Assembly: GCA_947427205.1 (NCBI GenBank)
Contig: CANEHB010000007.1
Coordinates: forward strand, 1 to 64,000
Direction: 5' to 3'
Length of the DNA stretch: 64,000 nucleotides
From: an uncultured Clostridium sp.
GTDB taxonomy: Bacteria > Bacillota > Clostridia > TANB77 > CAG-508
Shown: positions 24 through 6,744 of the stretch, piece after piece
How positions within the stretch are numbered: position 1 is the stretch's first letter
How the letters are laid out: each line of letters starts with the position of its first letter
The notes under the pieces: generated by a model
Seen by the model: only the letters and a program-made list of their open reading frames with translations
Databases searched by the model: none
Told to the model about the DNA's origin: nothing
Program-made: the position numbers and the translations under genes

Positions 24-2210
24 CTAAAAAACACTCAATAACTCTTGCAAAAATCTATACGTATTTTGTAATGATGTTATTGAAACTCTTTCATTTGGAC
101 TATGTACATCTTCAGTATTCGGGCCTATACATACATATTGCAAATCTTTTATTTTATCTTTAAAAAATCCACCTTCAACAACACCTTGTGTAATAATTCT
201 TTCTAAATCTTTTTTATATAAATTCTTGTAAACTTCATTACATTTTAATATTAAACTATTATTTATATCTTGCTCTACTCCTTTTAATTCTTGATTCCAA
301 TATATTTCTAAATCATTCGTTTTAACAAGTTTTTCTAATCTTTCTAAATATTTATCTCGAAGTTTTAAATCATTTGCTCTAGTTGAATAACCAATATTTA
401 TATACAAATCATCTTCTTTTACTTCTGCCATATTACAAGATAATATAACATTATTATTTATATACTCTAAAGCTCCATTTTCATAATTATATATAAAATC
501 TATAACTCTATTTGTAATGTCTTTAGAAAAACACATTTTATCTTCATTGCATTTTATTATTTCAATACTTACATTTTCATAAAATTCTTTTTGCTCATTA
601 ATCATTTTTTCTATAATTTTTATTTTTTCTGATTTAGTAAAAAATTTTACTGAAAAATCTCTTGGAATAACATTAACCTGACTTCCACCACATATTTCTT
701 TTATATAAACATCTTTTATTTGCTTTAATATACTAATTCCTAATTTTATTGGATTACCTCTTTTTATATCTCCAATATTTCCTCCTGAATGACCTCCTTT
801 AAAATTGTTATATTTTAGTTCATATTCTGAATAATTTTCAGGAATACCTATATATTCTTTTTTTATTCTACCTTTCCACTCTAAACAATTTGCAGAACCT
901 ACTAAAATTTTTCCTTCTCTGCCTCCATCCAAAGATATTATTTTTTTACTCTCAAGTTTACTTAAATCTATATTTATAGCACCTATCATAGTAGTTTCTT
1001 CTTGTACTGTAAATATTGCTTCTACTTTTGGCATTTTTACTTTTGAATCTAATATTGCTAAAATTTGAGCAACTCCTATTCCATTATCTGCTCCCAATGT
1101 TGTACCATTTGCTTTTATATAGTCATCTTCTTTATATAAAATAATTGGATCTTTCTCAAAATCATGTTTTATATCTTCTCTTTTTTCACATACCATATCT
1201 GTATGTGCTTGAAGCGCAATAACTTCGTTATTTTCATATCCACTTGATGCTTCCTTTTTTATAATTACATTATAATTTTCATCTTCATATACTTCTAATT
1301 TTCTCTTTTTAGCAAATTCTACTAAATATTCTTTTATTTTTTCTTCATTTCCAGACTTTCTTGGAACTCTACTTATTTCTTCAAAAAATTTCAATACTTC
1401 TTTTGGTTCTACTTCATTAATATTTAATTTTTCCATTTTCCTCTCCTTCACATCAATATATCTTTTTAAGAAATCTTTTGTTCTTTGTTTTTTAGGATTT
1501 CTTATTACATCATAACTACTACCTTCTTCAATAATTTTTCCTTGATCCATAAATATTACTCTATCTGCAACTTCTTCTGCAAATTTTATTTCGTGTGTAA
1601 CTATTATCATTGTTCTTTTTTCTTTAGACAAATCTTTTATTACTTTTAAAACTTCTCCTATTAATTCTGGATCTAATGCACTTGTTGGTTCATCCATACA
1701 TATTATTTGTGGATTTATTGCTAAGCATCTAGCTATTGATACTCTCTGTTTTTGACCACCTGATAAATTGCAAGGATATGAATTTGCCCTACTTAACAAA
1801 TCCATTTTTTCTAATAATTCATCTGCAACTTTTTCTGCTTCATTTTTATCTTTTTTTAGTACTTTAGTTTGGCTTACCATTATATTTTCTTTTACTGATA
1901 AATGTGGAAACAAATTAAAATCTTGAAATATCATCCCTGTATATAAATTTATTTTTTTCAGAATTTCTTTATTATTATAAATCGGTTTTGATTTTTTATA
2001 TTCTTTAATCATTTTTTCACCATTTATAATAATATTACCTGAATTTATTTTTTCTAAATTGTTTATACATCTTAATAAAGTTGATTTCCCTGATCCTGAA
2101 GGTCCAAGTATTACAAGAGTTTCTCCTTCTTTAACATTTAAAGATACGTCTTTTATAATTTCTAAATTACCATATTTTTTTGATACATTCTTAACCTCTA
2201 AAATATTCAT
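24..2210 (-). CDS. In-frame fusion: amino-acid ABC transporter ATP-binding protein (aa 1-258) + aminoacyl-histidine (Xaa-His) dipeptidase, PepD-like (aa 259-728)
   Basis: N-terminal Walker A GPSGSGKST, LSGGQKQRVSIARCL signature, MDEPTSALDPE; C-terminal M20/PepD-type LQAHTDMVCEK, GTTLGADNGIGVA, QEETTMIGA, GGHSGG. Internal ATG at 1436-1434 preceded by AAGGAGAGGAAA. Confidence 0.9.
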   Translation of the reverse strand: MNILEVKNVSKKYGNLEIIKDVSLNVKEGETLVILGPSGSGKSTLLRCINNLEKINSGNIIINGEKMIKEYKKSKPIYNNKEILKKINLYTGMIFQDFNLFPHLSVKENIMVSQTKVLKKDKNEAEKVADELLEKMDLLSRANSYPCNLSGGQKQRVSIARCLAINPQIICMDEPTSALDPELIGEVLKVIKDLSKEKRTMIIVTHEIKFAEEVADRVIFMDQGKIIEEGSSYDVIRNPKKQRTKDFLKRYIDVKERKMEKLNINEVEPKEVLKFFEEISRVPRKSGNEEKIKEYLVEFAKKRKLEVYEDENYNVIIKKEASSGYENNEVIALQAHTDMVCEKREDIKHDFEKDPIILYKEDDYIKANGTTLGADNGIGVAQILAILDSKVKMPKVEAIFTVQEETTMIGAINIDLSKLESKKIISLDGGREGKILVGSANCLEWKGRIKKEYIGIPENYSEYELKYNNFKGGHSGGNIGDIKRGNPIKLGISILKQIKDVYIKEICGGSQVNVIPRDFSVKFFTKSEKIKIIEKMINEQKEFYENVSIEIIKCNEDKMCFSKDITNRVIDFIYNYENGALEYINNNVILSCNMAEVKEDDLYINIGYSTRANDLKLRDKYLERLEKLVKTNDLEIYWNQELKGVEQDINNSLILKCNEVYKNLYKKDLERIITQGVVEGGFFKDKIKDLQYVCIGPNTEDVHSPNERVSITSLQNTYRFLQELLSVF

Positions 2211-2361: not shown

Positions 2362-3012
2362 TTATTCATAATACTCTAATTTCTTTTCCAACTTATTAAA
2401 TAATATTGACACTACAAAAACTAAAATTAAATAATATACTCCTGCTATGCAAAGTGGTATAACTGAAAAATTATAACTGGCTTGTTTTTGAGCTAAAGCA
2501 AACATTTCTGTAACACCTATTATTTGTGCAAGAGAAGTTGATTTCAATAAAGATATAACTTCATTTGACATTGATGGTAAAATTATTTTTATAACTTGAG
2601 GTAAAATTATTATCAAAAAAGTTTGTATTTTATTAAACCCTAATGTATATGCAGCCTCCATCTGACCTTTTGGTATACTATTTATTCCACTTCTAAAAAT
2701 TTCAGAAAAATATGCTACATAATTTAATACAAACGCTACTATTATTGCCACAAATCTATCATAAGTTATACCAAGCAAATAATATGGAGAAAAATATACA
2801 AAGATTATTTGTAACATTATAGGTGTACCTCTTATTATCAAAATATATAGTTTTATAATATTGGATATTATTTTACATTTTGAATTTCTTAAAATAGCTA
2901 CTAAAATACCAAGTGGTATTGAAAACATTAATGTTAATATAAATATTTTTAATGTTATATCTATTCCTGTAAAAAGTATTTTTGTTACATTAATACATCC
3001 ATATATACTCAT
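2362..3012 (-). CDS. Amino-acid ABC transporter permease (HisM/GlnP type)
   Basis: Polytopic protein with EAAYTLGFNKIQTFLIIILPQ (EAA loop); sits in the transporter operon. Confidence 0.92.
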   Translation of the reverse strand: MSIYGCINVTKILFTGIDITLKIFILTLMFSIPLGILVAILRNSKCKIISNIIKLYILIIRGTPIMLQIIFVYFSPYYLLGITYDRFVAIIVAFVLNYVAYFSEIFRSGINSIPKGQMEAAYTLGFNKIQTFLIIILPQVIKIILPSMSNEVISLLKSTSLAQIIGVTEMFALAQKQASYNFSVIPLCIAGVYYLILVFVVSILFNKLEKKLEYYE

Positions 3013-3809
3013 TACTTACTCTCCTTTACTGTAATCATATCTTCACCAAACCATTTTTTTGAAATTTCTTTTAAAGTTCCATCTTTTTTTAACTCATATA
3101 AAGTATTTTGTATTTTATCTCTTAATTCTGTATTTCCTTGTTTAAAAGCAATAACACTTCCATTACTTTTAGATATATTTTCAGAATCTACTGTTTCATA
3201 GCTTTTATTTTTAGATTGAATTAAATAATTTCCTATAATGCTTGAGCAAAATATACTATCTACTCCTCCTGTTTCTAAGTCCATAAAAGCTGTTAAGTTA
3301 TCACTATATGATATAATTTCTACCTTTTTTCCAAATTCTGAATTTTCTAAATCCAATGCTTGACTTGATCCTGATTGAACACCTATCTTTTTACCTTCTA
3401 ATTCATATTGATTCTTAGCAGTTGTTCCACTTTTTAAAATAAAATAATTTTTTCCTTTAATATAATTTTCAGTTAATGTCATTGTTTTTGCTCTTTCTTC
3501 TGTATAAGCAAATCCATTCCAAATACAATCTATATTTCCAGAATTTAATTCTTGCTCTTTAGATGCCCATGATATTTGTTGAAGTTTAAGCTCCATTCCT
3601 AATCTTTCACACACTGCTTTTGCAACATCAATATCAAATCCAACTATTTCATTATTTTCATTTCTAAATCCCATTGGTGGAAAACTATCATCTAAACCAA
3701 TTACTAATACATTTTCTTTAATTTTTACATTATTTTTGTTTAAGAACATTGCCACCATAACTACTATTAAAATTACTACTAAACTACAAAATATTAATTT
3801 CTTGTTCAT
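3012..3809 (-). CDS. Amino-acid ABC transporter substrate-binding protein (SBP_bac_3 type)
   Basis: VIGLDDSFPPMGFRNENNEIVGFDIDVAKAVCERLG; start moved to MNKKLIF because AGGAGG lies just upstream. Confidence 0.92.
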   Translation of the reverse strand: MNKKLIFCSLVVILIVVMVAMFLNKNNVKIKENVLVIGLDDSFPPMGFRNENNEIVGFDIDVAKAVCERLGMELKLQQISWASKEQELNSGNIDCIWNGFAYTEERAKTMTLTENYIKGKNYFILKSGTTAKNQYELEGKKIGVQSGSSQALDLENSEFGKKVEIISYSDNLTAFMDLETGGVDSIFCSSIIGNYLIQSKNKSYETVDSENISKSNGSVIAFKQGNTELRDKIQNTLYELKKDGTLKEISKKWFGEDMITVKESK

Positions 3810-3934: not shown

Positions 3935-3977
3935 AAAAAAAGACTTAAAGGTTTTTGTACCTTTAAGTCTTTTTTTA
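3935..3977 (-). terminator. Attenuator terminator 2
   Basis: AGACTTAAAGG-TACAAAAA-CCTTTAAGTCT then TTTTTT on the minus strand. Confidence 0.85.
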
Positions 3978-4024
3978 CTTTAAAGGCACAAGCATCTATA
4001 AGCCTGTGCCAATACTAGCACAAG

Positions 4025-4069
4025 CTACTTTTTATGATGATGTATATTACTTTTTAAAATATTTCTCAT
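4025..4069 (-). CDS. Putative leader peptide 2, MRNILKSNIHHHKK
   Basis: ATG after AAGGAGATAAAAA, 14 codons with three consecutive His codons, TAG stop; followed by hairpin and intrinsic terminator. Confidence 0.75.
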   Translation of the reverse strand: MRNILKSNIHHHKK

Positions 4070-4111
4070 TTTTTATCTCCTTTTATAAATTTCTTTTATA
4101 ATTATTTTCTA

Positions 4112-4151
4112 AAAACAAAAGTAGCCTTAAGGTTTTGTACCTTAAGGCTAC
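4112..4151 (-). terminator. Attenuator terminator 1
   Basis: GTAGCCTTAAGG-TACAAAA-CCTTAAGGCTAC then TTTTGTTTTT on the minus strand. Confidence 0.85.
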
Positions 4152-4202
4152 TAAACACAAAAGGCACAAGCATCTATAGCCTGTGCCCAATTTTGACACA
4201 AG

Positions 4203-4247
4203 CTATTTTTTATGATGATGTTTGTTACCTTTAAAAATATTTGTCAT
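4203..4247 (-). CDS. Putative leader peptide 1, MTNIFKGNKHHHKK
   Basis: AAGGAG upstream, 14 codons with three consecutive His codons, TAG stop; same layout as leader peptide 2. Confidence 0.75.
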   Translation of the reverse strand: MTNIFKGNKHHHKK

Positions 4248-4286
4248 AAAAAATAAATTCTCCTTTTTGACTTCTTTATGTTTTTT

Positions 4287-4315
4287 ATTTTAGCATGATT
4301 TACAATTATTGTCAA
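4287..4315 (-). promoter_or_regulatory. Sigma-A-type promoter for leader/transporter/dipeptidase operon
   Basis: TTGACA (4310-4315), 17-nt spacer, TAAAAT (4287-4292), minus strand. Confidence 0.8.
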
Positions 4316-6263: not shown

Positions 6264-6500
6264 AAAAAAGCTTTCATCTCTGTAACCTTACGTTACAGGG
6301 ACGAAAGCCATAACTTCCGCGGTGCCACCCTATTTGAAAACAATTAGTTTTCCACTTTTAAATAAGTTGCATTATAAATTTTACAACTATTTTTTTGCTC
6401 CAATGTGTTTCGCAAAATTGAACTTAATTTAAAATGCTCTCAGCCAATGGCATTTTTTCTCTGTAAAATGTTTTTCAATTGCTTTCATCTTCATAGCAAA
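6264..6500 (-). promoter_or_regulatory. T-box leader of aspS
   Basis: GGTGGCACCGCGGAA (6315-6329, minus) followed by terminator stem GCTTTCGTCCCTGTAAC/GTTACAGAGATGAAAGC + T run; stem I region upstream. Confidence 0.93.
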
Positions 6501-6744
6501 TCTAAAATATATTATACACTATTTATAGACTATCTGTCAATGTTTTATACATTTTTTTCAAAACATATGCCACCTAATTTTATCGTTTATAATTTTTTAG
6601 CAAAATTTATCAAATTTTTATTAAATATATATGATTTTAGAAATCTTTATATCTTATAAAACGGTTTCAGGGGCCTTAGTCTAAGAGCCCCTTACTTTCT
6701 TTTCGAACCATATTCAATTTTCGTTAACCTAACAGGATCAGTAT

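Follow-up and report, generated by a model that had tools for sequence, protein, structure and literature searches.

A putative tandem histidine-leader attenuator ahead of an amino-acid transporter and dipeptidase operon in an uncultured Clostridium

The Operon and Its Host

The window analyzed here is a stretch of 64,000 nucleotides from an uncultured Clostridium sp. (assembly GCA_947427205.1, contig CANEHB010000007.1). Near its start, an operon on the minus strand begins with the gene of an amino-acid binding protein of the SBP_bac_3 family (3012..3809), followed by a polar amino-acid ABC permease (2362..3012) and by a 728-aa ORF (24..2210) that joins an ABC ATPase (residues ~1-252) to an aminoacyl-histidine dipeptidase (residues 268-726; 385 bits against TIGR01893, cut-off 344). 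An earlier sequence-only reading of this DNA had named these four functions; the identities hold, but the ATPase and the dipeptidase form one fused ORF instead of two genes. Eleven relatives share this fusion, while the two are separate genes in 20 others, and the order SBP-permease-ATPase-dipeptidase is kept in all 31 relatives with a long enough contig. In the 12 fused loci, the ATPase of the importer carries a cytosolic peptidase.

Histidine is a putative ligand of the SBP, because a PDB sequence search with this protein matched only moderately similar amino-acid binding proteins. No hisD was found in the genome, which is 96% complete, and the operon very probably serves the scavenging and uptake of histidine in a gut Clostridia bacterium without this gene. 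No T-box and no His leader were seen ahead of the hisS of this genome.

Layout of the Leader Region

Positions 4315-3935 of the minus strand contain a single promoter and, behind it, two similar units that each end in an intrinsic terminator. The promoter (4287..4315) reads TTGACA-17-TAAAAT, with TG ahead of the -10 and 11 of 12 consensus matches. It is the sole good promoter upstream of both units, and no good one was found between unit 1 and unit 2; therefore, the units would act in series. Further upstream lies aspS, which has a T-box-like element directly upstream of it (6294-6503 of the window, minus strand; 82 bits, under the Rfam cut-off of 93).

Both leader ORFs have 14 codons and end in HHHKK-UAG, a word that a search of the 1.92 Mb genome, with up to one mismatch, finds at these two sites only. 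Leader ORF 1, MTNIFKGNKHHHKK* (4203..4247), has its His codons at 4220-4212 and its UAG at 4205-4203, and is preceded by the SD sequence AAGGAG (4265-4260), 12 nt from the start codon. Leader ORF 2, MRNILKSNIHHHKK* (4025..4069), has the corresponding codons at 4042-4034 and 4027-4025 and an identical SD (4082-4077) at 7 nt. Each unit thus has an SD and a short ORF, predicted to be translated, in which consecutive codons specify the amino acid to which the downstream genes relate.

The segments AGCUUGUG, GGCACAGGC and GCUUGUGCC and the two terminator arms are present in both units. In unit 1, the 1:2 hairpin (4179..4205) consists of segment 1 (4205-4194) and segment 2 (4187-4179); their counterparts in unit 2 (4002..4027) lie at 4027-4016 and 4010-4002. 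The 1:2 pairing comprises 10-12 bp, with the UAG counted in. Segment 3 of unit 1, GCUUGUGCC(UUUUG) at 4158..4171, has three partners: pairing with segment 2 would lead to termination, pairing with segment 4 to antitermination, and pairing with a segment 0 in the leader ORF to a lock of the ribosome-free RNA. Segment 3 of unit 2 (3980..3993) does not pair strongly with its own leader ORF. The intrinsic terminators, formed by segments 4 and 5 according to folding, are located at 4120..4152 in unit 1 (14 bp and a U-run) and at 3935..3976 in unit 2 (again with a U-run).

The promoter, the two units, their SDs, leader ORFs and segments were all recovered in the places where the sequence-only reading had put them. 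Both units fold more stably than chance, with z-scores of -7.3 for unit 1 and -6.9 for unit 2 and none of 200 shuffles as stable. The 3:4 pairing that the sequence-only reading had proposed exists in both units, although the version drawn for unit 2 needed correction and folds as 10 bp. Likewise, its five segments are all real, but a sixth had been missed, namely the leader-ORF bases that pair with segment 3.

Conservation Among Relatives

A genome scan with the SBP yielded 80 loci, the 36 closest of which were inspected; in one of these, the contig ends too near the gene. A leader ORF with HH or HHH is present in all 35 testable relatives, roughly 190-475 bases upstream of the SBP gene, and the attenuator architecture is common to all of them. 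A motif scan of metagenomes added more than 40 contigs with an HH or HHH leader, and wherever the contig continues, the same SBP comes next. When 393 genomes across the class were searched with the motif, matches occurred in the same bacterial family and none beyond it. No His leader was found at seven distant SBP loci (L038-L044), and in the four of them whose contigs continue past the ATPase, the dipeptidase is absent there.

The leaders fall into sequence classes. Those of class A end in HHHKK* or similar and have the segments AGCUUGUGUC, GGCACAGGCU and GCUUGUGCCUUU; those of class B end in HHHRRSL* and differ in their letters, with the same pairings. Leaders of hisS-type and hisG-type operons in the same family make up two further classes. 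When segments of these four classes were crossed, the mean duplex energy weakened for each pairing: from -15.7 (own class) to -11.1 kcal/mol (crossed) for 1:2, from -20.1 to -15.2 kcal/mol for 2:3, from -11.6 to -8.2 kcal/mol for 3:4, and from -17.8 to -6.2 kcal/mol for 4:5. Within class A, the conformation 2:3 plus 4:5 has 35 cells in which both sides changed, against 14 in shuffles, and all 35 fall in the terminator; pair counting in this class found no both-side changes in 1:2 or 3:4. Segments 1-3 are near invariant inside class A, and the case for compensatory change in them therefore rests on the comparison between classes. Such invariance is as expected of segments that need to pair with two or three partners, although taken alone it proves nothing.

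Among the things that the sequence-only reading had named as speaking against it were homologous leaders without the His codons and pairings without compensatory changes. As described above, the His codons are kept and the pairings survive the changes of letters between classes, so that a mutually exclusive terminator and antiterminator are conserved by pairing. The logic of exclusive 1:2, 2:3, 3:4 and 4:5 pairings is in this way upheld by folding, relatives and class comparison alike. One could still regard the hairpins as mere terminators, or as stable 5′ UTR structure, with no regulatory part for translation; in favor of this, the upstream neighbor is aspS, and the intrinsic terminators are strong. 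This is hardly credible, however, given the dedicated promoter between aspS and the units and the joint conservation of small ORFs with SD, His codons and alternative pairings.

Ribosome Position as the Predicted Switch

To follow the effect of a ribosome, transcripts were cut off at segment 4 and folded after masking all RNA up to a point 12 nt beyond the A-site codon's first base. With the A-site at the first His codon, 3:4 prevailed over 2:3 in 39 of 41 units; the numbers were 35 of 41 at the second His codon, 11 of 41 at the third and 0 of 41 at the stop codon. As 3:4 is favored mainly at the first two His codons, these are the effective ones. Among 500 dinucleotide shuffles of the part after the stop codon, none matched the observed switch in either unit of the window. 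In these computations, the position of the ribosome would act as the structural switch.

It is highly probable that the operon is controlled by ribosome-mediated transcription attenuation at His leaders. This was also the interpretation of the sequence-only reading, which had in addition expected a histidine-related target; folding, relatives and gene identities support both. The mechanism would work as follows. When charged tRNA-His is plentiful, the ribosome would reach the UAG and cover segment 1, upon which 2:3 forms and the 4:5 terminator halts RNA polymerase. When histidine is short, the ribosome would wait at the first or second His codon, allowing 1:2 to form and leaving segment 3 free; 3:4 could then form ahead of the synthesis of segment 5, and RNA polymerase would go on to the second unit. 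There the same test would be repeated, so that the output would be the product of two read-throughs. With histidine as the in vivo signal, shortage of this amino acid would turn the operon on.

In unit 1, masked folding gives 3:4, and hence predicted antitermination, for a stall at nearly any codon from 3 to 11; the specificity for histidine therefore rests on codon conservation and gene content. For this reason, the leaders might instead be general sensors of translation stress, answering to antibiotics or to low overall charging. There is precedent in Bacillus, where attenuation in the vmlR leader answers ribosome inhibitors (PMC9226507). A general sensor is nevertheless very improbable here: HH or HHH stands at the effective position in every testable relative, and the controlled genes are related to histidine, i.e., the TIGR01893 dipeptidase at this locus and hisS, hisI, hisHAFI and hisG at sister loci.

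A Probable Lock Formed by the Leader ORF

Segment 0 lies within the leader ORF, in the stretch that leads up to the His codons and takes in bases of these codons. It pairs with segment 3 and a 3′ extension of it, thereby enclosing the 1:2 hairpin. In unit 1, segment 0 is the GGTAACAAACATC part of leader ORF 1, which pairs with GATGCTTGTGCC; the bases GGTAACAAAC are among those engaged. Equivalent pairs in other letters are AAACAATAAAGG with CCTTTATTGTTT in the relative L020 and ATATTTTTAAAC with GTTTAAAAATAT in class B; the two sides of the lock covary from one lineage to another. Because segment 0 occupies segment 3, ribosome-free folding shows little 3:4, even though 1:2 is formed, in any of the five copies of unit 1 and in the majority of single units. 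Little or no lock is found in six single units (L005, L008, L012, L016, L028 and L036), and in unit-2 leaders the energy of segment 0 with segment 3 amounts to -6.6 kcal/mol, i.e., no lock.

The mean energy of segment 0 with segment 3 is -17.0 kcal/mol within the own group and -13.7 kcal/mol when permuted (eight groups; a fraction of 0.0004 of 20,000 permutations). In 35 of 36 units other than unit 2, the pairing is stronger than the average obtained with synonymous codons, the excess being modest in many; for unit 1 of the window, 0.23 of the synonymous versions attain the observed value. The lock would function as a safeguard for the ribosome-free state. On the basis of folding, an untranslated leader should rather probably terminate by default: without a ribosome on unit 1, or on the leader of most single-unit relatives, 0:3 would form around 1:2 and termination would follow. 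For unit 2, which lacks the lock, read-through is predicted when the leader is untranslated.

The Tandem Arrangement

For the uptake operon, the duplication is limited to a single clade, in which five members out of six have two units; L004, inside this clade, has one unit, as do most relatives. In the unit 2 of all five tandem leaders, the ORF, the five segments, the terminator and the predicted switch are intact, with HYH in place of HHH in L003. The SBP of L003 is 85% identical, and its contig matches a genome from a different genus within the family; the operon may for this reason have moved together with its leader. Tandem His leaders are also found outside this genus but within the family, ahead of hisG (L134:2815-3232), the first with HNH..H and the second with HHHKI, from which it follows that tandems arose more than once.

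Unit 2 could be a decaying duplicate that adds little, with regulation left to unit 1. The HYH of L003, the single unit of its clade member L004 and the missing lock all fit such decay, but the integrity of unit 2 in every tandem does not, and we regard decay as unlikely. Opinion is evenly poised on whether the two units form a working two-stage gate. If they do, the two read-throughs would multiply in series. Tentatively, and at a little under even weight, such a gate can be read as one with opposite ribosome-free defaults, in which stage 1 is locked shut by the pairing of its own leader ORF with segment 3 and opens only upon translation, and stage 2 is open unless a ribosome completes its leader. 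A published model stresses the fraction of regulatory codons as a source of sensitivity (PMC1183508); attenuators in series would be another route to a sharper response.

Sister Loci and the Copy at lysS

His leaders are not limited to the uptake operon. In the same family, they are found ahead of hisS, hisI, hisHAFI and hisG operons, and the leaders of hisS and the his operons score only 36-48 bits with our model R1. A class B leader (HHHRRSL) at L133:3837-3962 precedes two genes, one GNAT-like and one for an M20 peptidase, possibly another target of His scavenging.

A third paralogous copy in the genome precedes lysS (G000 contig C1:114-251, plus strand; L121), with the leader MINTIFEGNKHKK* and a promoter of its own. 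In the lysS-side copies the His run is lost: they read GNKHKK, and GNKRKK* or GNKQK* in three relatives (L122:4563-4697, L123 and L124), and the predicted switch is intact. Since the lysS-side copy lies directly 3′ of the ATPase-dipeptidase gene in two relatives (G348 and G389), the operon of the window and C1 are probably adjacent. The copy may have been retargeted to lysine or may be a relic, a shift to lysine being weakly supported. As a proven lysine sensor it was rejected: mainly one Lys codon stands in the effective stall window, this Lys is also found in His leaders, and the lysS promoter (TTTACA-17-TATAAT) lies after the element. If the gate reading is true, the lysS-side copy would represent a chassis that was copied and given other codons. 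The LysS of this genome (L121:321-2480) is 719 aa long and carries an HD domain at its C-terminus; for many relatives of the genus, the LysS match stops near residue 500-540.

Single-unit relatives have an A/T-rich inverted repeat between the terminator and the SBP gene, with a self-complementary G+C center. The letters of this center vary (GCGCGC, GTCGAC, TCGCGA, GGCGCC, TGGCCA), and the palindromy is kept; sites include L004:3920, L016:2992, L019:3943, L020:3923, L021:365, L024:3013 and L126:2806. This repeat may be an operator or a kissing-loop hairpin. As a third hairpin taking part in the switch, it is ruled out for the window, where it is absent.

Comparison With Known Systems

The RF00514 His_leader covariance model did not match the leader at E-values up to 1. 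Rfam provided no gathering-level match in the loci searched, the lone match being a chance one to a miRNA family, far below the cut-off. Control of the operon by a T-box (RF00230) was dismissed, as the leader has no match and the T-boxes of the genome lie elsewhere. T-boxes are nonetheless comparable, in that they respond to tRNA charging and commonly control His transporters and synthetases in Firmicutes.

The enterobacterial his attenuator likewise uses a leader ORF with His codons, alternative hairpins, an intrinsic terminator and the ribosome position as sensor. Here, however, uptake is controlled instead of synthesis, and there are two units in series, with three His codons per leader compared to seven in enterobacterial hisL. 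In the enterobacterial his leader, as modeled for E. coli, ribosome-free termination is achieved through a row of local hairpins; in the present leaders it would be achieved by 0:3 enclosing 1:2.

Leader-peptide attenuation requires that the ribosome keeps pace with RNA polymerase. PMC7858274, with reference to Johnson et al. (2020), reports that transcription outruns translation in Bacillus subtilis and perhaps in many bacteria. The His leaders of Clostridia, which are conserved, covarying and predicted to be locked when untranslated, offer a natural test system for such control, and the gate with opposite defaults, if true, would allow attenuation to operate in cells whose RNA polymerase tends to outrun ribosomes.

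The nearest precedent for the tandem is Salmonella mgtCBR, where a single leader mRNA likewise carries attenuation at two leader ORFs; these sense ATP and proline, and the case is called a singular example (PMC3641672). In contrast to these different signals, both ORFs in the window are duplicates with the same His run. A same-signal tandem with single-unit sister operons allows single and serial attenuators to be compared.

Closest are the His leaders of Firmicutes, the same phylum. Attenuators of this type were predicted for his operons of the Bacillus cereus group, Peptostreptococcaceae/Lutispora and Erysipelotrichales (PMC9413887) and for hisS/hisZ paralogs in bacilli (PMC2965389); for hisXYZ transporters, the reported control is by T-boxes or HisR. 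In the published leaders, three to five consecutive His codons are followed at once by the attenuator, antiterminator and terminator hairpins, and the feature that marks those of PMC9413887, a His-rich leader ORF immediately ahead of terminator and antiterminator hairpins, is found in the window. The sister loci at hisS, hisI, hisHAFI and hisG probably belong with them. The targets described there are his operons or synthetase paralogs, and the main text mentions neither a tandem nor a lock. The sequence-only reading had thought a duplicated His leader on such an operon in a Firmicute new; Firmicute His leaders as such were already published. In the literature outside subscription papers, neither a His transporter-dipeptidase operon under leader-peptide control, nor a tandem for one and the same signal, nor a lock of this kind was found. 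While the principle of attenuation is known, the tandem copies, the uptake operon as target and the lock in the first unit appear to be new. They provide a regulatory handle on histidine scavenging in a gut lineage lacking hisD, and extend His attenuation in Firmicutes from synthesis to uptake.
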